From positions 1 through 64,000 of the forward strand of contig CAIOCZ010000022.1 of NCBI GenBank assembly GCA_903856805.1: DNA of 64,000 nt, read 5' to 3'. The notes under the pieces were generated by a model that searched no databases, had not been told where the DNA came from, and worked only from the letters and a program-made list of their open reading frames with translations. The stretch comes from an uncultured cyanobacterium (lineage in GTDB: Bacteria; Cyanobacteriota; Cyanobacteriia; PCC-6307; Cyanobiaceae). Positions 15,582 to 33,890 of this stretch are shown piece after piece. Position numbers and translations under genes: made by a program. Each line of letters begins with the position of its first letter. Position 1 is the first letter of the stretch.

Positions 15582-16700
15582 CTACAGGCCGAGCAGGCGG
15601 AACAGGGAGCCTGCATTGATCAGGGGACTGATGGGCTCCACCATGGATTTAAGGGCGTCGTTCGTTTTGGCCCAGCCGTGGCGATCCACCACGACCACAT
15701 CCCCCTGCTGCAGGGGGGGATTCTGGAGGGAGCCCATCGGGGCGGCGGGGTCGAAGGCCACGGTGGCCTGTTTGATGGCGCCAGTGGATTCGAGTCGCAG
15801 GAGGCGCACGTTGCCGGGGCTGCCGCGACGGGTGAGGCCGCCTGCGGACAGCAGGGCCAGGGAGAGGGGGCTGTTGGCCTTGATGTTCTGGGTGCCGGGC
15901 CGTTCCACCTCCCCGACCACATTCACGCTGATCGTGTCGGGGGCAAAGGTGGAGGAGGCCACCGCCAGCAGCTCGGCTTCGCTGAGGTGGTCCGCCTTGG
16001 GAACAAGGATGCTGTCGCCGTCATAGAGCAGGGGATTATTGATTGGTCCCCCCGCCTGCAACACCCGCCAGAAGTCGAACTGGAGGGTGCGGATCGGCGA
16101 TCCTGGTCCGCCACTGGCCCGTTGCACGGTGATCTGGCGCAGGTCGCCGTAGGCGGTGATTCCGCCGGCTTTCTGCAGGGCATCCACCAGGGTGGGCCAG
16201 CCGCTGGTGCTGATCTGGGCGGCGGGGGTTACGGCGCTGCCTGAGCTGCTGAGTTGGTTGGTGCCACCACGGCCGATGCTGTACAGGCCTGGACGCTGCA
16301 CCTCGCCGCTGATCGACACCCGCACCGGCCTGGCTTCCGCCAGGTCGAGGTAGACGATCGGCCGGCGCAGGATGCGGGCGTACCCGGCGGTGATGCGCTG
16401 GCGGGCTTCATTGATGGTGAGGCCCCAGACGGCAACGCTGCCCAGACGGGGCAAGTTGATGGTGCCATCGCTGAGCACTTCAGCGACTGTCTCGTAGCCC
16501 TCCATCCGAAACACGGAGCACCGCAGGCGATCGCCGGGGCCGAGGCGATAGCGGACCACGCCAGTGGGGTTGCTGCCACCGCTGGCCTCGGCCGGGGCGG
16601 GGGTGGTCCGGGCCAGGCCTGCCGTTGGCAGCCCCAGCAGGACCGTCAGCGCGATCAGGGCGCAGGCCCGGCGCGGGCCCCCGGAGACGGGACGGAACAT
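15582..16700 (-). CDS. Wza-like polysaccharide export protein with SLBB domains
   Basis: N-terminal hydrophobic leader; YRLGPGDRLRCSVFRMEGYETVAEVLSDGTINLPRLGSVAVWGLTINEAR; VSISGEVQRPGLYSIG; VNVVGEVERPGTQNIKANSPLSLALLSAGG. Confidence 0.9.
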   Translation of the reverse strand: MFRPVSGGPRRACALIALTVLLGLPTAGLARTTPAPAEASGGSNPTGVVRYRLGPGDRLRCSVFRMEGYETVAEVLSDGTINLPRLGSVAVWGLTINEARQRITAGYARILRRPIVYLDLAEARPVRVSISGEVQRPGLYSIGRGGTNQLSSSGSAVTPAAQISTSGWPTLVDALQKAGGITAYGDLRQITVQRASGGPGSPIRTLQFDFWRVLQAGGPINNPLLYDGDSILVPKADHLSEAELLAVASSTFAPDTISVNVVGEVERPGTQNIKANSPLSLALLSAGGLTRRGSPGNVRLLRLESTGAIKQATVAFDPAAPMGSLQNPPLQQGDVVVVDRHGWAKTNDALKSMVEPISPLINAGSLFRLLGL

Positions 16701-16807: not shown

Positions 16808-17668
16808 TCAGCCCGGTTCCCCCCGGCTCAAGGCCAGGGCCCGGGCGCGGCCGGCGCCGGCCAGCCGCTGCCGCTCCTCCGGGGCGGCGATCAGGCGCTC
16901 GATCGCGGCCAGCCAGCTGGCGTGGTCATCCTCAAGCAGCAGGCCATCGATGCCATCCCGGACGAAACCGCGATAGGGGGGGCGGTTGGAGTACAGACCG
17001 ACGGCACCCGATCGGGCGGCATCGATGGTTTTCACCGGGGCCCGGCAGGCGTTGAAGCGGCTCTCCAACAGGGGGCTGAGCAACAGATCGATGCGGTCGG
17101 ACCCCGTTTCCGCCAGATAATTGCTCCAGCCCATCGGGTGAAGAATGCGAACCCTGGGCAGGTGGCGGAACAGCCGATTGATGCCCAGGTCGCCGAACAG
17201 ATCCACATGGGTGTGGGGCTGGCGTTGTTGCAGGCGTTCCAGCAGGGGGACTAACCAGAGAAATTCCTGGGTGTGAACACTGGTGCCCAGGTAGGCCAGC
17301 TGCAGTCGGGGCTGGGGGGCCAGCAGGCTGGCATGGGGCCAGAGCGGCAGCTGTTCGGCGCCGAGGCCGGCGTATTTGCGGGCCAGCGGTGCGCTGGTGA
17401 CCAGGAGTCGATCGAACAGCTTGGGAACCCATCGCCGGCGGTTGGTGATGCGTTCCTGGAGGCGCCGGCGGTAGGGGGGAGGCAGGTCCTGCAGCACCTT
17501 GGGATCCAGCAGGTCATCGTCCATCAGCAACACCAGCGGGATGCCGCCTCGGCGCGCCTGCCGTAGGCCGGCCAGCCAGGGCCGCGGCAGGTAGCGCACC
17601 ACCACGACCGCCGCCGCCCCAAGCAGGGCCTTCTGACTGGTTGCGTCTGGGGGCCGGGCGGAATCCAA
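16808..17668 (-). CDS. Glycosyltransferase (GT4-like)
   Basis: YRRRLQERITNRRRWVPKLFDRLLVTSAPLARKYAGLGAEQLPLWPHASLL...VKTIDAARSGAVGLYSNRPPYRGFVRDGIDGLLLEDDHASWLAAIERLI. Coding frame continues upstream (...EIVLLHQGAGSTIDHFLRAPLEAQQAQILELDSARPP) to about 17.8 kb without an ATG. Confidence 0.75.
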   Translation of the reverse strand: MDSARPPDATSQKALLGAAAVVVVRYLPRPWLAGLRQARRGGIPLVLLMDDDLLDPKVLQDLPPPYRRRLQERITNRRRWVPKLFDRLLVTSAPLARKYAGLGAEQLPLWPHASLLAPQPRLQLAYLGTSVHTQEFLWLVPLLERLQQRQPHTHVDLFGDLGINRLFRHLPRVRILHPMGWSNYLAETGSDRIDLLLSPLLESRFNACRAPVKTIDAARSGAVGLYSNRPPYRGFVRDGIDGLLLEDDHASWLAAIERLIAAPEERQRLAGAGRARALALSRGEPG

Positions 17669-17890: not shown

Positions 17891-18868
17891 ATGGATGCAT
17901 GCGGCGCGGGCGATCCGACCGAAGACGTCTCAAACGGACTGGAGGGGAGCGTTGCCGTCGATCCCTTGGCCGCTGCGTTGGCTAGTCCCGAGCTGGCCGC
18001 CCAGCTTTGCTTTCATCAGGAGCCCTTCGACGCCTACTTCCTCTCCCCCGAGCTGTTTCGCCGGGTGGCCCCCTGGGTGGGAGCCACCCGGGCTCGAACC
18101 TTCAAGAACGTGTCGCCCCATGGGCCGCTGGATCTCGATCTGGATGGCCGTGATGCCCACTACTGGCATCTGCTGGTGTGGGATGGGCAGCGCCAGGTCC
18201 TGGCGGGCTCACTGCGCATGGCCCTGTCCCGTTGGCATGGGGCGGAATGGGACGGCCAGTGTTCCTATCTGGAGCACTGCTACCCCGGCCTGGATCGGGC
18301 CATGGCCGAGCGGGGTCTGGCCTATGCCGAGATTGGTCGCACCTTCGTGGCCCCTCCCTATCAGCGCACCTCCCTGGCGCTGATGGTCCTGCTGCGGGCC
18401 ATGGCCAGTATTCCCCTGGCCACGGGGCATCGGCACCTGCTGGGGATGGTGTCGTTCAATCACTTCCAGCACGGCGAGGAGGTGGCTCGGCAGTTTCTGG
18501 CTGCGTTGTGTGAGCCCCCCTTCGCGGGCGATCTGATCGTGCCGCCCGCCCGGCATCCGCTGCTGGATTTGCCTGCGCTGGGGGAGGATAGCGGCGAGCC
18601 TGCGGCCAGCCTGAGCCTGTTGGAGCAGCAGTTGGAGCAACGTTTTCAGGAGCCGTTCCGGGTGCCGGTGCTGCTGCGGCGCTATCTGCAGTTTGGCAAC
18701 GCCCGAGTGGTTGGCCTGTCCCTGGCCAAGGATTTCAACCAGATCACCGAGATTCTCAGCCATTGTGATCTGGACCAGCTGGCGGAGCGGCAGCGCCGCC
18801 AGTTTGTGGTCACCGACCTCAGGACCGTGTGGTCGCGGGACCAGGGCAACGGTGGCCTGGCGGGCTGA
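17891..18868 (+). CDS. GNAT/OlsB-like (hemolysin-type) N-acyltransferase family protein
   Basis: FDAYFLSPELFRRVAPWVGATRARTFKN...ECHYLEHCYPGL-like CSYLEHCYPGLDRAMAERGLAYAEIGRTFVAPPYQRTSLALMVLLRAMA; family assignment by pattern only. Confidence 0.55.
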   Translation: MDACGAGDPTEDVSNGLEGSVAVDPLAAALASPELAAQLCFHQEPFDAYFLSPELFRRVAPWVGATRARTFKNVSPHGPLDLDLDGRDAHYWHLLVWDGQRQVLAGSLRMALSRWHGAEWDGQCSYLEHCYPGLDRAMAERGLAYAEIGRTFVAPPYQRTSLALMVLLRAMASIPLATGHRHLLGMVSFNHFQHGEEVARQFLAALCEPPFAGDLIVPPARHPLLDLPALGEDSGEPAASLSLLEQQLEQRFQEPFRVPVLLRRYLQFGNARVVGLSLAKDFNQITEILSHCDLDQLAERQRRQFVVTDLRTVWSRDQGNGGLAG

Positions 18869-18892: not shown

Positions 18893-20872
18893 TTAGCTGG
18901 CCCGCTCCAATCGGGCTTGGGCTTGGCCGTAGAGCTGGCGAATATGCATGGAGAGGGCCTCGCTGCCGGCGAAATGGCGGGGATCGATCGGCGCCCCTTC
19001 CCGGCAGAGGATGGTGGCCTGAGGCCCCAATAACCGCTGCACCAGAAGCCGGAAGGGCCGATAGCGCGATCCTTCCTCTTGGCGAGCAAAGCCCCGGTAG
19101 GTGGTGAACCAGGGAACGATCAGGGCATCACTGCGGCGGGACAGCACATAAAGGCTGCCCGAGACCCGCTCGGTGATCGGGGTGACCAGCGAACCACTGG
19201 GGAAGAGGAACAGGCGGCCGCGGCGTTGCATCAGGCGCAGCAACTGCCGCAGCCCATCCAGCCGGGAGTGGGGGCAACGGTGGTCGAGGCTGATGTGGCC
19301 GTAGTTCCTGGCGCTGGCCTTGAAGAAGGGCAGCAGCCAGCGCAGGTGCAGGGCGGCGGTGGTGATGCTGCACTCACGAAAATGGCCCTGGACCAGGAGG
19401 ACGTCCAGGGGATGGCCGTGGTTGGCGATATGGATCTGGGCACGGCTGATGGGATCCATGCGCCGATCGATCAGGACCCGAACCCCCAAGGCGGCGAGCC
19501 CCTGGCGGGAGGCTTGCTCTAGCAAGCGACAGGCCGTCTGGCGGGCACCGATCGCCAGGGCCAGCAGCTGCAGGCCATAGGTGCCATAGCCGATCAGCAG
19601 GGTGAGCAACCTCACCAGCACCTGGGCTGGATGGGGGTAGGCCCCGACGGCATGGATGGCGAGTTCCGGGGAGATGCGGAAGGTGCCATCAAAGGGGAAA
19701 TCGCCATCAAAATTGCCATTGATTTGAGTTGTTTCGATCAGGTGTAGATAAAACTTTCGAAACAACTCCCGATCGGAAGCCTGGGGTTTCAGCCAGAAAT
19801 CGGCCAGGGATTGTTGATCGGTGATGCCCTCCAGATTGTAGAAGGTTTGTCCCATCACTTTGGTGGGAGTAGCATGATAGAGCGCCTGCAGGCCAACGGT
19901 GCTGTTGATCGTGATCACGGCCCGGGCTCGCTTGAGAATGGGACCGAGGGCGCCATCATGGAAATAGAGCACGCGTTCCGCGATGCCATGCTCCAGGGCC
20001 AGGTCGTGGATGAATCGCCCGTAATGGTTGTAGCCGCGGTCGCGGGGATGATGTTTGAACACCAGCCGATCCTGGGAACGGCCTGAGGCGGCGAAGGAGG
20101 CAATCAACTCGGTGATGAATGGCTCCATTCCCGAGTACTGCGAGCTGAGGTTCACCTGGGAATCGCTGGCAACCTGCAGGGGAACCAAGATAAATGGAGT
20201 TCCATCCATCAGCTGATCGCGGATCGAATGTTCGCTAATGCGATACAGGTGTTTGCGGGCAAATCCAGCCAGCTGGGCGAGAAGGTAGGAGGGTTTTGGT
20301 TGGAGTTTGTGGGGGCCGGAGATGATCGGATAGGGTGTAAAACTATGCTGAATGAAGGTGGGGGCTTTCCACCATTTACGCCAACGGATTCCCGTCTCAC
20401 GGCGGGCTTGGGGGATCACATCAGCGGGGGGCAGCGCGCGATAGTGGCCCGGGGGACGATTGAGGCTGGAGCGGGCATTGACCCGCTCCAGCTCCAGGCT
20501 GACGTAGTTAGGACGGATATAGCCAAGTTCGAAAACCCAGGGCTCAATCTTGTAGGGGCGATTGGCCTGGCTATTGAGTTCCTGGGTGAGGCCAATGGCG
20601 ATCCGATGGGGATCAATAAAATCGCCATACATGAAGAGATGGCGAATGCCTTTTTCGTGAAAAATTCGACGGAGGTAATTCTCAAAATCAGCCATTTCCC
20701 CGGCGTAGGGAAGGCGCTGATGTGCGGGAAAGCCGTATTCATGCAGCGGAAAACTGACTTTCCACACCGGCACCCCTCGCCGTTCCAGGTGGTTGGCCAG
20801 ACGACTGAAGAAGCTGCCGATGGGCCCCATCAGCAGCAGCACCGGTCCCTCGATGCTGACTTCGCGCGTCAC
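18893..20872 (-). CDS. Fusion: KpsS-like capsule polysaccharide (Kdo-transferase) domain + PlsC-like 1-acylglycerol-3-phosphate acyltransferase domain
   Basis: N-terminal VLLLMGPIGSFFSRLANHLERRGVPVWKVSFPLHEYGFP...FMYGDFIDPHR...VFKHHPRDRGYNHYG...GLQALYHATPTKVMG (Capsule_synth type); C-terminal HX4D (IANHGHPLDVLL), FLFPSGS and LIVPWF acyltransferase motifs. Start set at GTG 20872; the raw ORF runs to 21001 but that part overlaps kpsC. Confidence 0.8.
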   Translation of the reverse strand: MTREVSIEGPVLLLMGPIGSFFSRLANHLERRGVPVWKVSFPLHEYGFPAHQRLPYAGEMADFENYLRRIFHEKGIRHLFMYGDFIDPHRIAIGLTQELNSQANRPYKIEPWVFELGYIRPNYVSLELERVNARSSLNRPPGHYRALPPADVIPQARRETGIRWRKWWKAPTFIQHSFTPYPIISGPHKLQPKPSYLLAQLAGFARKHLYRISEHSIRDQLMDGTPFILVPLQVASDSQVNLSSQYSGMEPFITELIASFAASGRSQDRLVFKHHPRDRGYNHYGRFIHDLALEHGIAERVLYFHDGALGPILKRARAVITINSTVGLQALYHATPTKVMGQTFYNLEGITDQQSLADFWLKPQASDRELFRKFYLHLIETTQINGNFDGDFPFDGTFRISPELAIHAVGAYPHPAQVLVRLLTLLIGYGTYGLQLLALAIGARQTACRLLEQASRQGLAALGVRVLIDRRMDPISRAQIHIANHGHPLDVLLVQGHFRECSITTAALHLRWLLPFFKASARNYGHISLDHRCPHSRLDGLRQLLRLMQRRGRLFLFPSGSLVTPITERVSGSLYVLSRRSDALIVPWFTTYRGFARQEEGSRYRPFRLLVQRLLGPQATILCREGAPIDPRHFAGSEALSMHIRQLYGQAQARLERAS

Positions 20873-20909: not shown

Positions 20910-22934
20910 TCAGGAAAAACGGTGCGGAGCGATACGCTCCCGCAGCCGTCCCCAGTGGCGGAACAACCGACGCCACCAGCCCAGGCCCGCCACCGGTTCA
21001 AGGCGCCAGGCCAGCAGTTCGGCGATCGCCTCCTCCGGTTCGATGAACAGGCCGCTACGGCGGCTCACGTAGCGCGGGTAATCGATCAAGGTTCCGTGCA
21101 CCAGCGCGTTCAGGCTGAGTTGGCGGCCGCGGCGGGGACAGGCAAGCTGGTCCTGGGTCAGGCCCCAGCCGGCATAGAAGGGCAGTCCCCAGGTATGCAC
21201 CGGAACCCCCCGCAGCAGGGCCTCAAACCCGGCCAGGGAGGTCAGCACATGGATGGCGTCCACCTGCCCATAGAGCTGGTCCATGGACCCGTTCAAGAGA
21301 ATTTCGTTGCAGTGGGCGGCCGCAGCGGTGTCGCTGGTCGTGCCCTGGCGCAGTCCGGCCACCACATCCGGATGGGGTTTGTAGAGCACCCAGGCGTCCG
21401 GTTCGGCCCGTCGTACCGCCTGCAACAGCGCCAGGTTGGTGCTCAGCCCAGGGGCTCCGTAGCGGATCGAGGCGTCGCTTTCCACCTGGCCGGGGACCAG
21501 CACCACCCGCTGCGCCCCTTCCGGCCGACGCCAGGGGTCGGCAGAGAGGTTGTATTTGGTGAGACCGGCGGCCACCAGGAGCTCCCGCAGCGCCGCCGCC
21601 CGCTGCCGCTCCGCGGCGCTGAAGTCATGGTGGGCCAGGTGCCATTCCAGGTCACTGGCCGCTGTGGCGTCGTAATAGATCCCCCGGTGGTCCACCACCC
21701 AGGACACCGGGGCGATCAGGTTGGCCCCCAGCCCCACCGACCGCAGGAACCCATCCTCGATGTGGAGCAGGGTCGGTGGGGCTGGCTGGCGCAACCGCTG
21801 GCGCACCCCCAGCCCCGGTTCCCGACCCCAGACCGCCAGGGCCCTGGCGGTGGGGCTGGCCGGGCTGTGGCGGCGCCGGAAGCGGATCCGGGATCCGGCC
21901 AGGAAGCGCCGCAGGATCGGCTGTTTCCAGGGTTTGAAGCCGAAGGCCTCGATCACGGCCGGTTGACCGCAGCGCTGACGTCGCTGCAGGCCGAGCACCT
22001 GGATCAGTCGCTCCGGTTCGCAGCGCTGTCCTTGATGGGGGTCCAGGTAGCGGGGATAGGCGATCAGGGTGGCATGCACCAGTTGGGCCAGCTCGGGACG
22101 GGGGCCGCAGCGGCGCTCCGGCGAGGGCAGCGCATCCGTGGTGAGACCCCAGCCGGCGTAAAAGGGCATGCCGAAGCAGCGCACCGGCCGGTTCCAAAGC
22201 AGGGCCTCAAAGCCCAGTTGGGACGTCACCACGTACACCGCCTGGGCCTGCTCCAGCAGGGCCGTGGGATGGCCACCGTCGGCACAGAGTTCCAGCCGTG
22301 GATCGCTCAGCTGCTCCGGAGTGAAGTGGCTGCGCTTGCGACCGGCGGCCACATCGGGATGGATCTTGACCACCACCTGGCTGTGGGGGTGTTCCGCCAG
22401 GGCGGCGGCCAACATCTGCCCAAAGCTGGCAGCGTCGGCCAGTCCCCCGCCGATGGAGAGGTCGCCGGCGGTTTGGTCCACCACCAGCACGAAGGGGCGC
22501 GTGGGGGCTGAGGATTCCGGGGCGCCGTTGTATTTGCTGACCCGCTGGTCACACCACAGGCGCTGCAGGGCCTGGGCCCGATCCCGCTGGCCTGGCGCCA
22601 GGGGCTGGGCAATCAGCGCCTCCAGCCGGCTCGGCGCGGTGGCGTCGTAGTAGATGCCCAGGTCGTCCACCACCAGCGAGAGCGGTGGGCTGTCCGGCCC
22701 AAGAGCCAGGGAGCGCAGGAATCCATCCTCACAGCGCCAAAGGGGAAGGCTCCGTTGCCGTGCGATCTGCTCGGCGAGGCGCGCCGAGGGTTTGCGACCC
22801 CAGGCCAACAGGGCCTCCAGCTGCTCCCGTTGACAGGCGCGCCCCCCCCGGACCACCGTCGCCGGGGCCAGCAGGGGGCCGAGGGTGGGGATGCGGGCCA
22901 TGCCGCGGGATGGGATGCCAAGAATTGCTCCCAT
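20910..22934 (-). CDS. kpsC: Capsular polysaccharide biosynthesis protein KpsC (duplicated domain)
   Basis: Two tandem homologous halves, each with (R)CEDGFLRSLALGPD / IEDGFLRSVGLGAN, YYDATAPSRLE / YYDATAASDLE, KYNGAPES / KYNLSADP, VKIHPDVAAG / YKPHPDVVAG, FEALL..PVRCFGMPFYAGWGL / FEALLRGVPVHTWGLPFYAGWGL, and terminal YPRYLDP / YPRYVSRR. Confidence 0.93.
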   Translation of the reverse strand: MGAILGIPSRGMARIPTLGPLLAPATVVRGGRACQREQLEALLAWGRKPSARLAEQIARQRSLPLWRCEDGFLRSLALGPDSPPLSLVVDDLGIYYDATAPSRLEALIAQPLAPGQRDRAQALQRLWCDQRVSKYNGAPESSAPTRPFVLVVDQTAGDLSIGGGLADAASFGQMLAAALAEHPHSQVVVKIHPDVAAGRKRSHFTPEQLSDPRLELCADGGHPTALLEQAQAVYVVTSQLGFEALLWNRPVRCFGMPFYAGWGLTTDALPSPERRCGPRPELAQLVHATLIAYPRYLDPHQGQRCEPERLIQVLGLQRRQRCGQPAVIEAFGFKPWKQPILRRFLAGSRIRFRRRHSPASPTARALAVWGREPGLGVRQRLRQPAPPTLLHIEDGFLRSVGLGANLIAPVSWVVDHRGIYYDATAASDLEWHLAHHDFSAAERQRAAALRELLVAAGLTKYNLSADPWRRPEGAQRVVLVPGQVESDASIRYGAPGLSTNLALLQAVRRAEPDAWVLYKPHPDVVAGLRQGTTSDTAAAAHCNEILLNGSMDQLYGQVDAIHVLTSLAGFEALLRGVPVHTWGLPFYAGWGLTQDQLACPRRGRQLSLNALVHGTLIDYPRYVSRRSGLFIEPEEAIAELLAWRLEPVAGLGWWRRLFRHWGRLRERIAPHRFS

Positions 22935-23503: not shown

Positions 23504-23786
23504 GAAAATAATTGTAATAACAGGCCCCCGCTTGCGTTGGATTTTAGGATTTCAAAGATGCAGCTAATTTGGCGATTAGCTAAAATTATTGACGCATGAT
23601 TTTCCGGTGGATGGTCGTTGATGTTCGCGGTTTGGATGTTGTGTGGCGAAGATCCCCGCGCTCAAATTGCATTTGTCATCATGCAAAATATTGATGGCGT
23701 GTTCAGATCTTCTCCTGCTGGCGTCACCGCAGGCAGCCCAGCCCTGCGGCCCTAGGCAGGGAATGATCTTGAACCTCGGTGGGCCG

Positions 23787-24341
23787 ATGACGACAGCGAT
23801 CGAAACGGCGATGGCGGCGGCTGCCAAGCCCCTGGCCCCGGCGGCGGCGGATCGACGGCTGGAACGCTTAATCGCCGGCAGCAGTTGGAGTCAGGACGCG
23901 TTGATTGAGCTCCTCCATCGGGTTCAGCCTCTCTATGGCTACTTGCCCGCCTCGGCGCTGCATCGCGTTGCTCAGGAGTTGGCCTTGCCCCTGAGCCAGG
24001 TGTATGGGGTGGCCAGTTTCTATCACCTGTTCCACCTTTCTCCCCCCAGTGCCCAGCGCTGTGGCGTCTGCCTTGGGACCGCCTGTTACGTGCGCGGTGC
24101 GGCGGCTCTGGTGGAGCGGCTTGAGCGTCGGCTTGGGGTGGGGTTGGATCAGCCGCTGGGGCACCATGGTTGGACTCTCATCAGCCTGGGGTGCCTGGGG
24201 GCCTGCGGACAGGGCCCCCTGGTGTGCCTGAATCACCGTTTGGTCGGGTTCGACTCCGACAACGCCCCTGCTGCCCTGGAGGCTCGACTGGATGCCCTTG
24301 GCTTCCCCTCACCCCGGCCTCAGGCACCTGCGGCGCCGTAG
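23787..24341 (+). CDS. hoxE: Bidirectional [NiFe] hydrogenase diaphorase subunit HoxE (NuoE-like)
   Basis: ALIELLHRVQPLYGYLPASALHRVAQELALPLSQVYGVASFYHLFHLSPPSAQRCGVCLGTACYVRGAAAL...LISLGCLGACGQGPLVCLN; 2Fe-2S thioredoxin-like; upstream of hoxF. Confidence 0.93.
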   Translation: MTTAIETAMAAAAKPLAPAAADRRLERLIAGSSWSQDALIELLHRVQPLYGYLPASALHRVAQELALPLSQVYGVASFYHLFHLSPPSAQRCGVCLGTACYVRGAAALVERLERRLGVGLDQPLGHHGWTLISLGCLGACGQGPLVCLNHRLVGFDSDNAPAALEARLDALGFPSPRPQAPAAP

Positions 24342-24994
24342 GCCACCTGGCAGGCCGTGTTCAACAGCTGGGCATCCTGCAGCGTGAGGGGTGTGCCGCC
24401 ATTCAGGAGGCCTGCGTTGCAATCCGCATTGCCGCTGTAATAAGGACCATTGACATTGCTGCTGAACACGAAGGTCACCCCGGCCGTGCCCACCGCCTGA
24501 ATCGATCCGTAGTTCAGTTGGTAGGACGTCTGGGGCACCACGATCACCGGCGTTTGGTTGCGACTGGCGTTATTGATCAATGCCGTGATGGTGGCCGCGG
24601 TGGCGAGCCCTGCCACCCCCCAGGCCACGGCGTTGGTGTTCCACCAGCCCCAGCTGGAGGGGGTCCAGGCATACCAACCGGTGCGCCAGCTCCGATAGCC
24701 CCAGTAGCCGCCATTCGACCACCGGGCTGACCAGGCCGTGGGCCGTCCGGTGTAGACAACCGGTCGTGCCGCCGGCCGATAGAGCGGTGCCGCCACGGGT
24801 CGTACGACGGGGCGGGCGACGGGGGCCGGCCGCACCCCAGGACCAGCCCCCGGCCGATAGACACCGCCGCCGAGGGGTTCCCGCACCCGTTCCGCCAGCA
24901 CCGCCGGCGTGGCCAGCACTTGCAGGGCCAGGGCACTGACCAGGCCCAAGGACCCCAGGGGGTGAGGGGGGGAGCTGGAGGGGGCGTTGGGCAT
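24320..24994 (-). CDS. Secreted hypothetical protein lying antisense between hoxE and hoxF
   Basis: N-terminal signal-like LGLVSALALQVLATPAVLAE; PVxRPVxxPxYRPAARP repeats, W/Y-rich WSNGGYWGYRSWRTGWYAWTPSSWGWWN, then a conserved-looking C-terminal domain. Confidence 0.65.
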   Translation of the reverse strand: MPNAPSSSPPHPLGSLGLVSALALQVLATPAVLAERVREPLGGGVYRPGAGPGVRPAPVARPVVRPVAAPLYRPAARPVVYTGRPTAWSARWSNGGYWGYRSWRTGWYAWTPSSWGWWNTNAVAWGVAGLATAATITALINNASRNQTPVIVVPQTSYQLNYGSIQAVGTAGVTFVFSSNVNGPYYSGNADCNAGLLNGGTPLTLQDAQLLNTACQVAYGAAGA

Positions 24995-25164
24995 GGGCCG
25001 GTCGAAGCAACATTTTCCACCCTAGGCAGCACTCGATCGGGTGGTTCAGACGTCTCCTTGGGGAGTAGGCGGGCGCTCGGTGTTGGGGTTGGGCCCGATC
25101 GACATCCTCCACTCATCGCCACGGTCCCGCGTCGCTAGCACGGTTGCCTGAGCCCGGAGGTGCC

Positions 25165-26784
25165 ATGGCGACGGCCCATTTCCACGCGCCGCGTTGGCGT
25201 TGCTGTGATGCCAGCGCCTGCCGCATGGCTGGTTCCGCGCCCCTGTGGCGGGCCCTGCGGCGGGCCCGCAGGGCCGCTGGCCTGTCGGCTGTGCAGTTGC
25301 CGATCAAGCGTGTGGGCTGCCTGCGGCTGTGCAGTGAGGGGCCGTTGTTGGCCCTGGATGGTGGGGCCGTCTCCGCAGATCCGGCGGCCGGCCGTGCGAC
25401 CCGGCTCTATGGCCGACTCACGCCGGAGCTGGCCGCCGATCTGCTGATGGAGGCGTTGGCGGGAGCGGTCCCCGCCCTGGAGCCCCATCGCCTCGATCCC
25501 CACCTCCCCTTCTTTGCCCTGCAGCGCTCCGTGGTGCTGGAGCACTGCGGCGTGCTGGACCCCGGGGCGATCGACGATGCCCTCGCCCACGGCGCCTACG
25601 CCCAACTCCGTCACTGTCGACGTCGCCTCAGCCCGGCCGCGGTGCGCGCGATCGTGCGCCTCAGTGGGTTGCGGGGACGGGGCGGCGCCGGGTTCCCCAC
25701 CGGCCTGAAATGGGACACCGTGGCCCAGCAGCCGCCTGGACCGCGCCTGCTGGTCTGCAATGCCGACGAGGGCGACCCCGGAGCTTTCATGAACCGCAGC
25801 GTGCTGGAGGGGGATCCCCACCGTCTGGTGGAGGGGATGGCGATCGCCGCCTACGCCGTCGGCGCCGAGCGGGGCTACATCTACGTGAGGGCGGAATATC
25901 CCCTGGCGATTCGGCGGCTACGGGTGGCCCTGGCCCAGGCCAGGCGGCGGGGCCTGCTGGGGGATGGGCAGGCCAGCGACCCGATGGCGTTACGGCTGGA
26001 GTTACGGGTGGGGGCCGGGGCCTACGTGTGCGGAGAGGAGACGGCGCTGCTGCGTTCGATCGAGGGGCGGCGGGGCGTCCCCCATCCCCGTCCTCCCTAT
26101 CCGGCGGAGGTTGGCCTGGGCGGGGCGCCCACCCTGATCAATAACGTCGAAACCTTCGCCGCCGTGCCGTCGATCCTTCGCCATGGTGCCGCCTGGTACG
26201 GGGCGATCGGCAGCCCCGCCAGTCCGGGCACCAAGGTGTTTGCCCTGTCCGGCGCCCTTCGCCACACCGGTCTGGTGGAGGTGCCCCTGGGGACCCCCCT
26301 CCGCCAGGTGGTGGAGACGATGGGGGGCGGCGGCTCCGAGGGCTGGCCGATCAAGGCGGTGCAGACCGGTGGTCCTTCCGGCGGCTGTGTGCCGGCCAGC
26401 CAGCTCGACGTCCCCCTCGATGACGACCATCTGCGGAGTCTGGGGGCCCGGATCGGCTCTGGCGGCCTCGTGGTGATAGGCCCGACCACTTCGATGCCGG
26501 CCCTGGCGCGGCAATTCATGCGGTTCTCCAGGCAGGAGAGCTGCGGTCAGTGCCTCCCCTGCCGTGCCGGCACCGTGCAGCTGGAGCAGCTGCTGGATCG
26601 TTTTGTGGGTGGCGTCGCCAGTAGGGCGGATGTCGAGCGGTTTGAGGCCCTCGCCGCCATGGTGCAACGCACCAGTCTCTGTGGCCTGGGGCAGGCGGCT
26701 CCCACGCCGGCCCTGAGCAGCCTGCGCTGGTTTCGTCAGGAGTACCTCGACGCCTGCATGGCCACCGAGACGCCATGGAGCTGA
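25165..26784 (+). CDS. hoxF: Bidirectional hydrogenase diaphorase subunit HoxF
   Basis: RGRGGAGFPTGLKWDTV, LVCNADEGDPGAFMNRSVLEGDPH, GAGAYVCGEETALLRSIEGRRGVPHPRPPYPAEVG, ESCGQCLPCRAGT; N-terminal 2Fe-2S domain. Confidence 0.95.
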   Translation: MATAHFHAPRWRCCDASACRMAGSAPLWRALRRARRAAGLSAVQLPIKRVGCLRLCSEGPLLALDGGAVSADPAAGRATRLYGRLTPELAADLLMEALAGAVPALEPHRLDPHLPFFALQRSVVLEHCGVLDPGAIDDALAHGAYAQLRHCRRRLSPAAVRAIVRLSGLRGRGGAGFPTGLKWDTVAQQPPGPRLLVCNADEGDPGAFMNRSVLEGDPHRLVEGMAIAAYAVGAERGYIYVRAEYPLAIRRLRVALAQARRRGLLGDGQASDPMALRLELRVGAGAYVCGEETALLRSIEGRRGVPHPRPPYPAEVGLGGAPTLINNVETFAAVPSILRHGAAWYGAIGSPASPGTKVFALSGALRHTGLVEVPLGTPLRQVVETMGGGGSEGWPIKAVQTGGPSGGCVPASQLDVPLDDDHLRSLGARIGSGGLVVIGPTTSMPALARQFMRFSRQESCGQCLPCRAGTVQLEQLLDRFVGGVASRADVERFEALAAMVQRTSLCGLGQAAPTPALSSLRWFRQEYLDACMATETPWS

Positions 26785-27494
26785 TCCAGTTGTGGCTCAA
26801 TGATCAAGCCGTGACGGTGTCGGTCGGAACGAGCCTGTTGGCGGCCTGTCGCGCTGCCGGCCTGACCCTTCCCACCCTCTGCCATCTGGATGGACTCACG
26901 CCCGTGGGGGCCTGTCGGCTTTGCCTGGTGGAGATCGCCGGCTGCTCCCGGTTGCAGCCTGCCTGCACCACCGCGGCCGCTGACGGACAGCGGGTGCATA
27001 CCCACACCCAGGAGTTGCTGGACCTACGACGCATGGCCGTGGAGCTGTTCTTTGCGGAAGGCAACCACATCTGTGCCATCTGTGTGGCGAACGGCAACTG
27101 CGAGCTTCAGTCGATGGCCGTGCTGGTGGGGATGGATCACAGCCGTTTCCCCGCCCAGGCCCCCCAGCGGGACGTGGACGCCTCCCATCCCCGCTTCACC
27201 CTGGATCACCACCGCTGCATTCTCTGCACCCGCTGCGTGCGGGTCTGTGATCAGATCGAAGGGGCCCACGTCTGGGATGTGGCCTACCGCGGCGAGCACT
27301 GCAAGGTGATTGCCGGGCTGGATCAGCCCTGGGGTGCGGTGGCCGCCTGCACCGATTGCGGCAAGTGTGTGGATGCTTGCCCCACCGGTGCCCTGTTTCG
27401 CAAGGAGGAGGGTCTGACCGGCAAGCAGCCCGATCCGGCCGGGCCGGCCCGCCTGCGCCTCGCCCGGGACCAGGGCCGTTGGTGGATCCCATGA
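26775..27494 (+). CDS. hoxU: Bidirectional hydrogenase diaphorase subunit HoxU
   Basis: CHLDGLTPVGACRLCLVEIAGCSRLQPACTT; CAICVANGNCELQ; CILCTRCVRVCDQIEGAHVWDV; CTDCGKCVDACPTGALF. Confidence 0.95.
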   Translation: MELIQLWLNDQAVTVSVGTSLLAACRAAGLTLPTLCHLDGLTPVGACRLCLVEIAGCSRLQPACTTAAADGQRVHTHTQELLDLRRMAVELFFAEGNHICAICVANGNCELQSMAVLVGMDHSRFPAQAPQRDVDASHPRFTLDHHRCILCTRCVRVCDQIEGAHVWDVAYRGEHCKVIAGLDQPWGAVAACTDCGKCVDACPTGALFRKEEGLTGKQPDPAGPARLRLARDQGRWWIP

Positions 27495-28054
27495 GGCGCC
27501 TGCGACTGGCCACGGTGTGGCTGGCCGGCTGCTCCGGCTGCCACATGGCCCTGCTCGATCTCGACGAGGAGTGGTTTGATCTCGTCGAACGGGTGGAGAT
27601 CGTCTACTCGCCTGTCTTCAGCGACACCAAGCAGTTTCCTGCCGCCGTGGATGCCTGCCTGGTGGAAGGGGCGGTGGGCAGCACCCACGACCTGGCCCTG
27701 GCCCGGATTCTGCGCAGTCGCAGTCGCCTGGTCATTGCCCTCGGCGATTGTGCCGTGACGACGAACGTGCCGGGGTTGCGCAACCTGTTGCGATCGCCGC
27801 AGCGCAGTGGTGCCGAAGCCGTTCTCGATCAGGCCTACGGCGCCTTGGCCGACCTCCACCCCCAGCATCCCCAGGCCCCGGGCCTCCTGCCCGCCCTGCT
27901 GGACACCGTGTTGCCCCTCCATGCCGTGATTCCCGTGGATGCCTACCTGCCCGGTTGCCCTCCTCCCCTGCCCCGCCTGCGCCTGCTGCTGGAGGCCCTC
28001 ATGGCCCACCAGCTGCCGCGGCTGGATGGGGACGCCCTGTTGCGTTTCGGCTGA
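27491..28054 (+). CDS. hoxY: [NiFe] hydrogenase small subunit HoxY
   Basis: WLAGCSGCHMALLDLDE; VEGAVGSTHDLALARILRSRSRLVIALGDCAVTTNVPGLRN; PVDAYLPGCPPPLPRL. Confidence 0.95.
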   Translation: MRRLRLATVWLAGCSGCHMALLDLDEEWFDLVERVEIVYSPVFSDTKQFPAAVDACLVEGAVGSTHDLALARILRSRSRLVIALGDCAVTTNVPGLRNLLRSPQRSGAEAVLDQAYGALADLHPQHPQAPGLLPALLDTVLPLHAVIPVDAYLPGCPPPLPRLRLLLEALMAHQLPRLDGDALLRFG

Positions 28055-28064
28055 GGCCTGCACC

Positions 28065-29504
28065 ATGGGACGTCTCGTCTGTATTGATCCCGTCACCCGC
28101 ATCGAAGGGCAGGCCCGCATCAGCCTGCACCTCGATGACGCCGGCGTGCTGGTGGATGCCCGGCTGCATGTGTTGGAGGTGCGGGGGTTTGAGGCGTTCT
28201 GCGTGGGGCGGCCCTTCACGGACATGGGAGCGATCACGTCGCGCATCTGTGGTATTTGCCCGGTGAGTCACCTGCTGGCGGCCGCCCGCGCCGGCGACCA
28301 GCTGCTGGCGGTGACCATCCCAGCGGCGGCGCGGCAGTTGCGGGAACTGCTCAACCTGGCCCAGATCCTCCAGTCCCATGCCCTGTCGTTTTTCCACCTC
28401 AGTTGCCCGGATCTCCTGCTCGGCTGGGACAGTGATCCCGCCCGGCGCAATCTGTTCGGTCTGATGGCCGCCGAACCCGATCTGGCCCGGGCGGGCATTC
28501 GCCTGCGTCAATTCGGTCAGCGCATTATTGAGCTGCTGGCGGGCCGGGCGATTCATGGCCTCTGGGCGGTGCCCGGCGGCGTGCTTACCCCCCTGGGCCT
28601 CGAAGCCCAGGCCTGGATCCTGGACCGCCTGCCGGAGGCCCGCGCCGCTGCCCGGCTCGCCCTGGAGCGCTACAAAACCCTCCTGGACGGCCCGTTGCAG
28701 CAGGAGCAGAGCCGCTTCGGCCGGTTCCCGAGCCTGTTCCTGGCCCTGGTGGGGCCCCAGGGGCGCTGGGCCCATCTCGACGGCGACCTGCGCCTGGCCG
28801 ATGCCGCTGGGGGCTGGATCGGGGAGCCGATCGACCCCCTGGCCTATGGGGAGCTGATCGCCGAGGCGGTGGAACCCTGGAGCTATCTCAAATTTCCCTA
28901 CATCCGTTCCCTGGGCTACCCCGAGGGGATCTACCGGGTGGGGCCCCTGGCGCGGCTCAATGTGTGCAGGGGCATCGGCACGCCCTGGGCCGAGGCGGAA
29001 CTGGTGGAACTGCGCCAGCGCTCCGGGCCGGTGCTGCTGGCCTCCTTTGCCTATCACCACGCCCGGTTGGTGGAGATCGTCGTCTGCCTGGAGGCGATCG
29101 AGCGGCTGGTGGAAGATCCGGGCTTGCGCAGCGCGCAGGTGCGGGCCAAGGCGAGTCTGAATCGATGGGAGGCCGTGGGGGTGAGCGAAGCGCCCCGCGG
29201 CACCCTCTTCCACCACTACCGGGTGGACCCCGACGGCCTGATCACCCACGTGAACCTGATCATCGCCACCGGCCAGAACAACCTGGCGATCAACCGCACC
29301 CTGCTGCAGGTGGCCCAGGCCACCATCCCCTCGCCCTTGGCGGCAAACGCCGAGATTCCCGAGGCGATCCTCAACCGCGTCGAGGCGGGCCTGCGCTGCT
29401 TCGACCCCTGCCTGTCCTGCAGCACCCACGCCGCTGGCCAGATGCCCCTCCTGGTGCAGTTGATCGACGCGAGGGGAGAGCTGTTGGCGGAGCGGAGCCG
29501 TTGA
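28065..29504 (+). CDS. hoxH: [NiFe] hydrogenase large subunit HoxH (group 3d)
   Basis: MGRLVCIDPVTRIEGQARISLHLDDAG; L1 motif SRICGICPVSH; C-terminal L2 motif FDPCLSCSTH|AAGQMPLLVQLID with cleavable tail. Confidence 0.97.
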   Translation: MGRLVCIDPVTRIEGQARISLHLDDAGVLVDARLHVLEVRGFEAFCVGRPFTDMGAITSRICGICPVSHLLAAARAGDQLLAVTIPAAARQLRELLNLAQILQSHALSFFHLSCPDLLLGWDSDPARRNLFGLMAAEPDLARAGIRLRQFGQRIIELLAGRAIHGLWAVPGGVLTPLGLEAQAWILDRLPEARAAARLALERYKTLLDGPLQQEQSRFGRFPSLFLALVGPQGRWAHLDGDLRLADAAGGWIGEPIDPLAYGELIAEAVEPWSYLKFPYIRSLGYPEGIYRVGPLARLNVCRGIGTPWAEAELVELRQRSGPVLLASFAYHHARLVEIVVCLEAIERLVEDPGLRSAQVRAKASLNRWEAVGVSEAPRGTLFHHYRVDPDGLITHVNLIIATGQNNLAINRTLLQVAQATIPSPLAANAEIPEAILNRVEAGLRCFDPCLSCSTHAAGQMPLLVQLIDARGELLAERSR

Positions 29505-30004
29505 TGGCGCTCGACCTGGTGATCGGCATCGGCAACCCCCTGCGAGGGGATGATGGGGTGGGGCCTCACTTGGCGGCTACGGTTGCGGCCTCGGTTGCTA
29601 CCGCGGTTGCAACCACGGTGTCTTCCCCGGGGTCGGCTGGGCATGGGGGGGTGCAGGTCCTGGTGGTGCACCAGCTGACCCCCGAGCTGGCCGAACCGCT
29701 CTCGGAGGCGCGGCGGGCCCTGTTCCTGGATGCCTGGTTGGCGTCCACGGCCAGTCGGCCCTGCCTCCAGCCCCTGCGGCCGGCTCCCCATTGGGAAGGC
29801 AGCAGCCATCGCCTCACCCCCGCGGTGCTGCTGGGCCTCGCGGATCTGCTCTACGGCGCGACGCCAACGGCCCAGCTGCTGCTGGTCCCGGCGTTTGTCA
29901 TGGAGCCCATGGCCGAGGGATTTTCACCGCCCCTGCGGCGCGGCCTGCCCCGGGCCCGACGTCTCCTGGCGCAATGGCTCGCGTCGGGAGGGGACGATGC
30001 ATGA
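29504..30004 (+). CDS. hoxW: Hydrogenase maturation endopeptidase HoxW
   Basis: VIGIGNPLRGDDGVGPHLA ... HQLTPELAEPLSEARRALFLDAWLAS; follows hoxH with overlapping stop/start. Confidence 0.9.
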   Translation: MALDLVIGIGNPLRGDDGVGPHLAATVAASVATAVATTVSSPGSAGHGGVQVLVVHQLTPELAEPLSEARRALFLDAWLASTASRPCLQPLRPAPHWEGSSHRLTPAVLLGLADLLYGATPTAQLLLVPAFVMEPMAEGFSPPLRRGLPRARRLLAQWLASGGDDA

Positions 30005-30356
30005 ACTGAGCCTGATGGTGGCGCTGCGGGAGCAGGTGCTGGCGGCGGCGGCGGCCCGGGGGGCGCGGGCGGTCACGGCCATCCATCTGCGGATTGGTCG
30101 CCTGGCCGGAGTGGAGCCGGAGGCGCTGCAGTTCGCCGCTGCGTTGGTGTTGGCGGGCAGCCTGGCGGCTGGCGCGGCGTTGGTGATCGATTCGGTGGAA
30201 GCCCGCTGCCATTGCCGCCCCTGTGCAGCGCCGTTTGAGGTGCTGGACGGGATGTGTGTCTGTCCCCGCTGTGGGGCCATCAGTCGCCAGCTGTTGTGTG
30301 GCCGTGAACTGGCGCTGGCGGCCCTGGAACTGGAAGGGCTGGAGCCGGATCCCTAG
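29997..30356 (+). CDS. hypA: Hydrogenase maturation nickel metallochaperone HypA
   Basis: MHELSLMVALREQVLAAAAARGARAVTAIHLRIGRLAGVEPEALQFA; zinc site CHCRPC...CVCPRCG. Confidence 0.94.
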   Translation: MHELSLMVALREQVLAAAAARGARAVTAIHLRIGRLAGVEPEALQFAAALVLAGSLAAGAALVIDSVEARCHCRPCAAPFEVLDGMCVCPRCGAISRQLLCGRELALAALELEGLEPDP

Positions 30357-30441
30357 GCCGCGTGCTCCGGGGGTGTCTGACGTCGCTATGCGTTCTCGAT
30401 CGGCGTCCTTAGGTTTCCTTCATCCGTTCCCGTTGCCGTTG

Positions 30442-31161
30442 ATGTGCCTGGCCTGTCCCTGCTCCCGGACCGCGCCGGCTGCCATGGCTCCTGTCCCCCC
30501 CGCTGCGCCCGATCGCCAGCTTCTGCGGCTTGGCCAGGATCTGCTGCACCGCAACGACGCCCTGGCGGTCGCCAACCGAAACCGCTTTGATCAGGCCGGT
30601 GTGCGGGTGGTCAATCTGCTCTCGGCGCCGGGATCTGGCAAAACCGCCCTGCTGGAGCACTTGGGGGGCCTGACGGCGGGGCCCATGGCGGTGATTGTTG
30701 GGGATCTGGCCACCGACAACGACGCCCGTCGGCTGCGGGCCGCCGGCCTGGCGGCGGTGCAGATCACCACCGGCCAGGCCTGCCACCTGGAGGCCGCCAT
30801 GGTGGCGCGCGCCGTGGATCAATTGGAGCATTCCGGGGTGCCTCTCTCCTCGCTGCGGTTGCTGGTGATCGAGAACGTGGGCAACCTGGTGTGCCCCGCC
30901 GCCTACGACCTGGGCGAACACCTGCGGCTGGTATTGCTGGCGGTGACGGAGGGGGAGGACAAACCGCTGAAGTATCCGGCCCTGTTCCACAGCGCCGATC
31001 TGGTGGTGATCAGCAAGCTGGATCTGGCGGCCGCCGCCCCCTTCGATCTGGCCCTCGCCCGGCGGGCGATCGCCCGGGTGGCGCCGCGGGCGCGGATCCT
31101 GGCGGTGTCGTCGCGCCGTGGCACCGGCCTGGCGACCCTGGCGGCGGCGCTGGTTGCGTGA
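30442..31161 (+). CDS. hypB: Hydrogenase nickel incorporation GTPase HypB
   Basis: VRVVNLLSAPGSGKTALLEHL; VGDLATDNDARRL; LRLLVIENVGNLVCPAAYDLGE; VISKLDLAAAAPFD. Confidence 0.95.
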   Translation: MCLACPCSRTAPAAMAPVPPAAPDRQLLRLGQDLLHRNDALAVANRNRFDQAGVRVVNLLSAPGSGKTALLEHLGGLTAGPMAVIVGDLATDNDARRLRAAGLAAVQITTGQACHLEAAMVARAVDQLEHSGVPLSSLRLLVIENVGNLVCPAAYDLGEHLRLVLLAVTEGEDKPLKYPALFHSADLVVISKLDLAAAAPFDLALARRAIARVAPRARILAVSSRRGTGLATLAAALVA

Positions 31162-33653
31162 TCAGCGGCCTGCGTCTCGACTGCCGCGGTGTGGTTCAGG
31201 GGGTGGGGCTGCGGCCGGCCCTGCACCGGCTCGCCGCGGAGCTCGGCCTGGGGGGGGAGCTGTGCAATGGGCTGGAGGGCCTGCGGGTGGAGCTGGTGGG
31301 GCCCCGGCCGCAGCTGGAGTTGTGGCTGCAGCGCCTGCCCACCGCCCTGCCGGCGGCGGCGCGGCTGGAGCCTTGCCACCCCGTTTGGCTGCCGGCAGCC
31401 GTGGTGACGGCCCTGGCGGCCCGCCCCGGCCTTTGGCTGGGGGCCGGCCCGCCCCGGTCCCTGGCGCAGGCGCTGGTGGCTCCAGCCCTGAGCGCCGATC
31501 GGGCCCCCTGCGCCGCTTGCCTGCGGGAGCTGGTCGATCCATCTCAGCGCCGCTGGGGGGATCCGTTCCTCAGTTGCAGCGCCTGCGGTCCCCGCTACAG
31601 CGTGGCCAGCGCCGAACCCTTCAGCCGCGCCCACACCAGCCTGGCCGCCTTCCCCCTCTGCACGGCCTGCGCGAGGGAGTTCAGCGATCCCGCCGATCGC
31701 CGCTTTCATGCCGAGACGATCGGCTGCCCGACCTGCGGCCCGCGCCTCACCCTGCTGGATGGCGCAGGCCAGGCGATGGATTTCCCCGAGTCGCTCGGCG
31801 CCAGCGCCGCCGGCCGGGCGGCGGTTTTGATCCAGGCGGCGGCGACCCTGTTGGCCGCGGGCCAGATCCTCGCCCTGCAGGGGGTGGGGGGCTTCCAGCT
31901 CCTGGTGGCGGCCACCAATCCGGCGGCCGTGGCCCGGCTGCGACGGCGCAAGCGCCGACCCACCAAGCCCATGGCCCTGCTGGTGGCCGATCCGGCCTGG
32001 GTGGAGGCGGTGGTGGGGCTGACGCCGGCCGCCCTGGCGGCCCTGGCCTCGCCGGCGGCGCCGATCGTGCTGCTGCCCCGTCGCCCCGGGCCGGAGGCCT
32101 ATCCGGGGGTGGCGCCCGGCAGCGCCGATCTGGGGGTGATGCTGCCGGCTTCCCCCCTGCAGGCCCTGCTGGTGCGGGCCTGTGCCGGGCCGTTGGTGGC
32201 CACCAGTGGTAATCCCAGTGGCGAGCCCCTCTGCACGACGCCGGACGAGGCCCGTCAACGGCTCGCGGGGCTCGCCGATGGGTTCCTGATCCACGACCGC
32301 CCGATCCTGCGGCCCCTGGACGACTCACTGCTGCAGCTGATTGATGGCCGGCCAGCCCTGTTGCGCCGGGCCCGGGGTTATGCCCCCGAACCGTTGCCCC
32401 TGCCGGCCCCCGTGCCCCCCCCCGGCGTGCTGGCCCTGGGGGGCGACCTCAAGTGTGCGCCGGCCCTGGCCTGCGGCGATCGCCTCTGGCTGGCCCCCCA
32501 TCTGGGGGACCTGGAGGCGCCGCAGACCCTGGAGCGGCTGCGGGCGGGGCTGGCCGCGTTGCACGCTCCCCTGCCCCTGCTGGTCGCTGACGCCCATCCC
32601 GGCTACCACAGCCATCGGCTGGCCCTGGGCTGGCCGGGGGGAGCGCAGCTGGTGCCCCATCACCTCGCCCATGCCCTGGCGGTGGTGGCCGAGCACGGCC
32701 TCGTGCCGCCCCTGCTGGCGCTCTGCTGGGATGGATTGGGCTACGGACCTCCGGCCGGGGGTGCGGCATCCCCGCGGGTCCCGTCCCTCTGGGGGGGCGA
32801 ACTGTTGGCGATCGCGGCCGGCAACGGGGCCCAGGGCCCCCAGCTCCGGGCCCAGCGGCTGGCGGCCCTGCGTCCCTTCCCCCTGCCGGGGGGCGGGCGG
32901 GCCCTGCGCGAACCGCGCCGTTCAGCCCTGGGGCTGCTGCTGGCCGGTGGCCTGGTGGACCATCCCGGGGCCCGCCACTGCCGAGCCGCCTTCGCCCCCG
33001 ACGATTGGTTGCTGCTCCGCCAGGCCGTGGCCGCCGGCTGTGGCAGTCCGTTCACCACCAGCGTCGGCCGGTTGTTCGATGCCGTGGCCTCCCTGCTGGA
33101 TCTGGTGCAGGGGCTGGGCCATGAGGGCCAGGGCGGCCAGGTGGTGCAGGCCGCCGCCGCCCGGGCGTCCCGGGAGCGGCGGGCCTATCCGCTGCCGTTG
33201 CGGCGGGCCCCGAGCGGCCTTGCCTGGGCCGCCCCTGGCACGGTGTCAGTCGGTTCCCCTCCGCCCCTGGGTTGGCTCGACTGGCGGCCCCTGCTGGCCG
33301 CCCTGCTGGCGGACATCGACGCCGGCATGCCTGTCGCCGTCTGCGCCGCCCGGGTCCAGAACGGTCTGGCCCGGGGGGCGGCCCGGGCCCTGGCGCGGGC
33401 CGCCCGCAGCCCGGAGTGGAGGCGTGTTCCGGCGGCTTCTGATCCCCCTCCGGGGCTGGCCGTGGCCCTGGCCGGAGGTTGTTTCCAGAACCGCTTGTTG
33501 CTGGAAGGCATGATTGCCGCCCTGCGGGGCCGGGGGCTGCGGCCCTATTGGGGAGAGGCGCTCCCCGCCAACGACGGCGGCCTCGCCCTGGGGCAGGTGT
33601 GGGCGGTGGCCCTGGGGCTCACCGCCCTCAGCGATGGCGCTTCTCCTCCCTAG
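31158..33653 (+). CDS. hypF: Carbamoyltransferase HypF
   Basis: Acylphosphatase RGVVQGVGLRPALHRLAAELGLGGELCNGLEGL; zinc fingers CAACLREL...CSACGPRYSV, CTACAREF...CPTCGPRL; YrdC region RRRKRRPTKPMALLV; ATSGNPSGEP; VADAHPGYHSHRLA; ALAGGCFQNRLLLE. GTG start at 31158. Confidence 0.95.
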   Translation: MISGLRLDCRGVVQGVGLRPALHRLAAELGLGGELCNGLEGLRVELVGPRPQLELWLQRLPTALPAAARLEPCHPVWLPAAVVTALAARPGLWLGAGPPRSLAQALVAPALSADRAPCAACLRELVDPSQRRWGDPFLSCSACGPRYSVASAEPFSRAHTSLAAFPLCTACAREFSDPADRRFHAETIGCPTCGPRLTLLDGAGQAMDFPESLGASAAGRAAVLIQAAATLLAAGQILALQGVGGFQLLVAATNPAAVARLRRRKRRPTKPMALLVADPAWVEAVVGLTPAALAALASPAAPIVLLPRRPGPEAYPGVAPGSADLGVMLPASPLQALLVRACAGPLVATSGNPSGEPLCTTPDEARQRLAGLADGFLIHDRPILRPLDDSLLQLIDGRPALLRRARGYAPEPLPLPAPVPPPGVLALGGDLKCAPALACGDRLWLAPHLGDLEAPQTLERLRAGLAALHAPLPLLVADAHPGYHSHRLALGWPGGAQLVPHHLAHALAVVAEHGLVPPLLALCWDGLGYGPPAGGAASPRVPSLWGGELLAIAAGNGAQGPQLRAQRLAALRPFPLPGGGRALREPRRSALGLLLAGGLVDHPGARHCRAAFAPDDWLLLRQAVAAGCGSPFTTSVGRLFDAVASLLDLVQGLGHEGQGGQVVQAAAARASRERRAYPLPLRRAPSGLAWAAPGTVSVGSPPPLGWLDWRPLLAALLADIDAGMPVAVCAARVQNGLARGAARALARAARSPEWRRVPAASDPPPGLAVALAGGCFQNRLLLEGMIAALRGRGLRPYWGEALPANDGGLALGQVWAVALGLTALSDGASPP

Positions 33654-33680
33654 ACCGGATCGATGGCAAGGGAGTTCAGC

Positions 33681-33890
33681 ATGTGCCTGGCGGTGGCCGG
33701 TCGCATTGTTTCGGTCCACGTGGAGGCCGGCGCCGCCCACGACGATCCCCTGGGGCGCTGCGCCGAGGTGGACTTCGGCGGCGTGCGCCAACGGGTGAGC
33801 CTGGCCTGTCTGGAGGACGCCCGGGTGGGCGATCGGGTGCTGGTGCACGTGGGGCTGGCCCTGTGCGTGGTGACGGAGCAGGGTCCGTGA
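33681..33890 (+). CDS. hypC: Hydrogenase assembly chaperone HypC
   Basis: MCLAVAGRIVSVHVEAGAAHDDPLGRCAEVDFGGVRQRVSLACLEDARVGDRVLVHVGLALCVV. Confidence 0.95.
   Translation: MCLAVAGRIVSVHVEAGAAHDDPLGRCAEVDFGGVRQRVSLACLEDARVGDRVLVHVGLALCVVTEQGP

Follow-up and report, generated by a model that had tools for sequence, protein, structure and literature searches.

A KpsS-PlsC-like fusion protein at a group-2-type capsule locus of cyanobacteria, with a possible dedicated lipid anchor

Capsules exported by ABC transporters are generally taken to share a Kdo-phosphatidylglycerol end, to which the Vi antigen is the sole published outlier (PMC9597891). In group 2 capsules the terminus is (lyso)phosphatidylglycerol (PG) carrying Kdo (PMC10148158, PMC12220298), and a QXXXD motif, containing the nucleophile, together with an HP motif, marks the beta-Kdo transferases (PMC10148158). 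Known KpsS proteins, as in E. coli, use (lyso)PG as the acceptor and stop after the Kdo-transferase domain. The Vi antigen of Salmonella Typhi is made without KpsS, KpsC and Kdo. Its anchor is built by VexE, a capsule-locus acyltransferase of the LPLAT superfamily with an extra N-terminal domain (TPR + LPLAT), which acylates UDP-GlcNAc using beta-hydroxyacyl-ACP (PMC9597891). In aminolipid synthesis, PF13444 enzymes form the amide with a chain taken from acyl-ACP, as a rule 3-hydroxyacyl-ACP; the second, ester-bound chain is attached by PF01553 enzymes, OlsA among them (PMC11631085).

The locus described here lies in a 64,000-nucleotide stretch of cyanobacterial DNA, which we refer to as the window (Table 1). 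It combines KpsS and KpsC, as in group 2 systems, with a dedicated acyltransferase of a capsule locus, as in Vi. Unlike in Vi, the acyltransferase here is part of the same polypeptide as a Kdo transferase. The literature searched contains no description of a KpsS + PlsC architecture, in agreement with a sequence-only reading of this DNA that did not recognise the combination as a characterised enzyme.

Table 1. Features of the capsule locus in the window.
Feature	Position	Strand	Evidence
Outer-membrane polysaccharide export protein, Wza/KpsD type	15582..16700	-	Poly_export 9.9e-18
GT4-like glycosyltransferase, weak family matches	16808..17668	-	kept in freshwater clade
GNAT N-acyltransferase	17891..18868	+	PF13444 7.7e-11; OlsF C-terminal half 1.6e-13
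KpsS-PlsC fusion protein	18893..20872	-	659 aa; GTG start at 20872, stop at 18893
Two-helix hairpin (aa 415-461) and PlsC-like domain (to aa 659)	18896..19630	-	PF01553, AlphaFold model, 5kym
Acyltransferase motif IV VPW, aa 586-588	19109..19117	-	
Acyltransferase motif III FPSG, aa 557-560	19193..19204	-	Glu of FPEG replaced
Acyltransferase motif I NHGHPLD (NHX4D), aa 484-490	19403..19423	-	
KpsS-type beta-Kdo transferase module, aa 1 to ~400	19673..20872	-	NF050054, PF05159, fold match to KpsC 6mgd and WbbB
HP motif, H275-P276	20045..20050	-	motif search
QXXXD, Q233 and nucleophile D237 (aa 233-237)	20162..20176	-	motif search
KpsC, two beta-Kdo transferase modules	20910..22934	-	PF05159 E 5.9e-85; QXXXD and HP in each

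Domain architecture of the fusion protein

The fusion gene begins 37 bp past the kpsC stop codon, and its frame is open throughout. A TTG at position 21001 offers an alternative upstream start but overlaps kpsC. The KpsS-like domain proposed in the sequence-only reading is borne out by two profiles that together span the whole domain: NF050054 from NCBIfam (E 1e-77, aa 11-388, model positions 15-387 of 390) and Capsule_synth PF05159 from Pfam (E 2.9e-51, aa 105-388, model positions 21-309 of 310), with the NF050054 score of 262 bits lying below that model's equivalog cut-off of 600 bits. Residues 12-390 align with E. coli group 2 KpsS at 34-35% identity, and the two systems share QXXXD and HP, the kpsC partner and the kps export genes. 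Both motifs are invariant across an alignment of 37 fusion sequences, and the fusion protein very probably acts in capsule initiation.

The C-terminal half matches the Pfam acyltransferase family PF01553 (aa 477-564, E 3.1e-6, 27.4 bits against a 23-bit cut-off), and the HX4D, FPSG and VPW motifs noted from the sequence are indeed in place. The domain is also conserved, with NHX4D, P(S/N)GS and PW retained in 36 of the 37 aligned fusions, including one with masked letters. An AlphaFold model built from 37 relatives (mean pLDDT 85, pTM 0.82) places a hydrophobic two-helix hairpin ahead of a PlsC fold. Foldseek matched this model to Thermotoga maritima PlsC (5kym, TM 0.66 over the target), as well as to KpsC (6mgd), the beta-Kdo transferase WbbB and many other GT-B-type proteins. 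A profile search of the PDB independently recovered 5kym (6e-4) and WbbB (0.009); the fusion searched against the PDB as a single sequence matched nothing.

Motifs II and III of the PlsC family bind the glycerophosphate acceptor, and the Glu and Arg of motif III are tied to glycerol-3-phosphate binding. The fold, the two-helix motif and NHX4D are shared with the 1-acylglycerol-3-phosphate acyltransferase PlsC (5KYM), whereas here the domain sits within a larger protein and the motif II Arg and the motif III Glu and Arg are replaced. The DR of motif II in T. maritima PlsC becomes DH in the fusions, and FPEGTR of motif III becomes (F/V/H/A)P(S/N)GSL (in the window FPSGSL, at the other loci mostly APNGSL). 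A different acceptor is therefore likely, and since FPEGTR is missing we class the C-terminal half as a PlsC-like domain rather than as a PlsC enzyme.

Distribution and gene neighbourhood

Among 386 genomes of the phylum, the full fusion is present in the window's genome and in ten others (51-56% identity), all of them in the same family; no fusion was found beyond that family in this set. In named genomes, a scan found 37 fusion loci, in Synechococcus, Cyanobium, Vulcanococcus, unnamed cyanobacteria and one contig labelled Bifidobacterium. The two sets partly overlap and together hold about 40 fusion loci, all within the Synechococcus/Cyanobium family, where 26 of 201 sampled genomes give a strong fusion match; the named-genome scan was queried with family-specific peptides, and independent fusions in other phyla could escape it. 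The frame is open across both domains at every named-genome locus whose contig is long enough to judge. A frameshift or assembly artefact at the junction, which the sequence-only reading had named as what would undo it, is thus excluded by the recurrence of the fusion.

Two further observations came from these searches. The contig labelled Bifidobacterium (CALPNT020000098.1, locus L047) was deposited under the name of a Bifidobacterium breve MAG, yet it is plainly of cyanobacterial origin and carries the fusion, GNAT, glycosyltransferase and exporter of the window's clade. There are also 104 KpsS-like plasmid records, many in Enterobacter, Klebsiella and E. coli, of which 57 are typed as conjugative; none covers 80% of the fusion protein, and none its acyltransferase part.

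In the window, the GNAT gene converges on kpsS-plsC across a gap of 24 bp. In most relatives, kpsC and kpsS-plsC are followed by genes for a ketoacyl synthase (KAS), an acyl carrier protein (ACP) and the GNAT on the opposite strand, and these by the Wza/KpsD-type exporter, which adjoins the locus in nearly all relatives. Across a range that runs from marine Synechococcus to Vulcanococcus and ATX 2A4, KAS, ACP and GNAT lie next to the fusion, and they remain beside it at three loci where kpsC is inverted (L135-L137). The KAS catalytic residues are intact (Cys165, His303, Lys335, His340) and the dedicated ACP retains DSL. The freshwater clade of the window has the GNAT without the dedicated KAS and ACP. 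Their loss in this clade is the simplest account because intermediates exist: L049 and L065 join the window-type glycosyltransferase and exporter with KAS and ACP, and L068 has KAS and ACP beside a window-like KpsS. A search of the window's genome for a relocated pair gave only a housekeeping-like FabF (38% identity) and ACP on contig C28. Serine versus asparagine in motif III was considered as a marker of KAS loss and ruled out, L023, L049 and L068 having Ser together with KAS.

Of the 131 genomes with a completeness of 90% or more, 24 contain the fusion, and exactly these 24 also contain the PF13444 gene; across all 201 genomes only two, both fragmented, have one without the other. A naive Fisher test of this co-occurrence gives 9e-27, but linkage between the genes and kinship among the genomes inflate this significance. 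Since fusion, GNAT and KAS/ACP are linked, they could travel together without forming one pathway. Distances between the genes correlate at 0.75-0.97, indicating shared inheritance, and we do not take this as proof of one pathway because neighbouring genes correlate anyway.

The GNATs share about 26% identity with OlsF-type proteins and do not match OlsB, OlsF or GlsB at equivalog level, their scores lying far below the cut-offs for OlsF (50-58 against 620 bits) and GlsB (19-31 against 300 bits). Among NCBIfam models the GNAT comes nearest to the C-terminal half of OlsF (5e-16 at the marine-type locus L031). The structure model resembles EsaI and FeeM, which use acyl-ACP; the GNAT alignment profile matched nothing in the PDB. 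FeeM, an N-acyl amino acid synthase, is among the best structural matches, but it is not tied to capsule genes and shares only 12% identity.

Several neighbouring genes are recorded here in their own right. Beside the capsule genes of the window lies a bidirectional NiFe hydrogenase cluster (23643-36054, forward strand; HoxE, HoxF, HoxU, HoxY/HoxH-like, HypF, HypD, HypE), followed on the reverse strand (36081-41309) by a gene for a 1742-aa protein that matches part of the sodium/calcium exchanger model (Calx-beta-like) and carries a 'bluetail' surface-protein domain at its C-terminus. At L031 (12784-19732) and marine equivalents, kpsC has as neighbours three genes for DUF6716 glycosyltransferase-like proteins, one for a PseF-like CMP-sugar transferase and one for a NeuB protein that contains CBS and AP_endonuc_2 domains. 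These L031-type marine loci likely specify a nonulosonic-acid glycan; the PseF, DUF6716 and NeuB genes were not found at window-type loci.

Kdo supply and capsule export

The remaining components of a group 2, ABC-dependent capsule system are encoded in the window's genome. KpsM and KpsE, with an ABC ATPase between them, lie on a separate contig (C103) away from the locus, and together with the Poly_export protein of the window they provide homologues of KpsM, KpsT, KpsE and KpsD. At L133 the genes for KpsM, the ABC ATPase and KpsE follow directly after the locus, so that all stand in one cluster. The KpsC partner is adjacent to the fusion, and CMP-Kdo supply is represented by kdsA, kpsF and a kdsB that is split over two contig ends. 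This group of freshwater and marine cyanobacteria has a full Kdo-capsule gene set at hand.

kdsA was found in all 26 fusion genomes. No WaaA was detected in the window's genome, and none over the cut-off in 39 relatives; cyanobacterial LPS has been reported to be without Kdo (PMC4390846). Kdo most likely serves the capsule. Since kdsA also occurs in many relatives that lack the fusion, Kdo may have further uses. A survey of cyanobacteria doubted the use of a Kdo linker, or proposed a different Kdo transfer (PMC4594306).

The lipid acceptor and competing readings

We propose that the fusion would start the synthesis of a group-2-type capsule exported by an ABC transporter, and that the lipid acceptor for this capsule would be made by enzymes of the locus. 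Dedicated KAS and ACP, followed by FabG reduction, would furnish a 3-hydroxyacyl chain, for which housekeeping acyl-ACP would substitute in the window's lineage, where KAS and ACP were lost. The PF13444 enzyme would N-acylate an acceptor with an amino group, and the PlsC-like half would then esterify the 3-hydroxyl, completing the lipid in the same membrane-bound protein whose KpsS half would transfer the first beta-Kdo from CMP-Kdo onto it. KpsC would extend the Kdo linker. The product would be an acyloxyacyl, aminolipid-like anchor in place of (lyso)PG. We infer the substrates, the order of the steps and the role of the lipid as Kdo acceptor from domain content and gene order, and the parts of the scheme differ in strength. 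The PlsC-like domain probably acylates the capsule lipid or a precursor of it. That this acceptor is of the aminolipid type we regard as an evenly balanced question, and we give the same middling credence to the scheme as a whole, in which an N-acylation and O-acylation route resembling OlsBA has its O-acylation tethered to the first-Kdo enzyme. The amine could, speculatively, be serine or an amino alcohol, each of which has an amine and a hydroxyl.

The comparison with OlsBA, OlsF and GlsB rests on a PF13444 N-acyltransferase encoded together with a PF01553 O-acyltransferase, and on acyl-ACP donors (PMC11631085). The systems differ in that the O-acyltransferase is here fused to KpsS and accompanied by a dedicated ACP and KAS; OlsF, moreover, has an N-terminus from a different Pfam family (PF19576). 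A PF13444 gene beside a PF01553 domain is the combination known from aminolipid synthesis in two steps and not from PG remodelling, and PG/lyso-PG is consequently not our first choice of acceptor. The locus suggests a custom-made lipid end for the capsule. If this is true, it would represent an additional way of anchoring capsules and a new role for OlsB-like enzymes, with a possible phosphate-sparing logic in nutrient-poor waters. More tentatively, and at somewhat less than even confidence, we suggest a third class of capsule anchor that includes open-ocean cyanobacteria: a Kdo-primed capsule on a dedicated, phosphorus-free acyloxyacyl N-acyl lipid from KAS, ACP and N-acyltransferase, with one protein both completing the acylation of the lipid and attaching the first sugar.

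The sequence-only reading had proposed that the tethered acyltransferase makes or remodels a PG/lyso-PG anchor. The link to a capsule lipid anchor has gained support, whereas for the acyl acceptor a dedicated lipid, which may be free of phosphate, has become more likely than PG/lyso-PG. In its fullest form this alternative would have KpsS use PG or lyso-PG in the manner of its E. coli counterpart, with the PlsC domain making or re-acylating the phospholipid or Kdo-lyso-PG, and GNAT, ACP and KAS working towards a different product of the gene island. The (lyso)PG ends of described group 2 capsules speak for it, as does the PlsC family itself, which is founded on lysophospholipid acceptors and whose nearest solved structure here is an LPA acyltransferase. 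In the genus g166 (L065/G409, G439), moreover, the fused PlsC domain has decayed in frame and GNAT, ACP and KAS are kept, hinting that the two are separable. Set against this are the replaced motif III residues, the presence of other PF01553 proteins in the genome and the strict linkage to an N-acyltransferase, which PG remodelling leaves unexplained; we consider it rather unlikely. LpxL and LpxM acylate Kdo-lipid A, and the PlsC domain could similarly place an acyl chain on Kdo, an amino sugar or the first glycan residues. The tethering to a Kdo transferase would suit such sugar-side acylation, the PF13444 enzyme could N-acylate an amino sugar too, and VexE sets a precedent by acylating UDP-GlcNAc as the Vi primer (PMC9597891). 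The domain, however, matches PlsC-type models and structures, and searches of Pfam, NCBIfam and folds returned no LpxL/LpxM-type or VexE-type family for it, making acylation of the sugar improbable.

Finally, the C-terminal domain might chiefly hold KpsS at the membrane or act as its scaffold and catalyse little or nothing, which we judge most improbable. The hydrophobic hairpin would fit such a role, as would the faster evolution of the acyltransferase domain relative to KpsS (mean distance 0.51 versus 0.28) and its decay in g166 and at L069, but the acyltransferase motifs are retained in nearly all aligned fusions. No standalone PlsC was found next to the g166 fusions; the O-acyl step of our preferred aminolipid-type route would therefore be dispensable there or supplied from elsewhere. 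Two loci (L032, L061) have an additional standalone PlsC following the fusion. At L069 the fused domain is without HX4D, and a standalone PlsC directly after it keeps NHX4D and PNGS; the acyltransferase activity therefore seems to be called for, in the fused or in the separate form.
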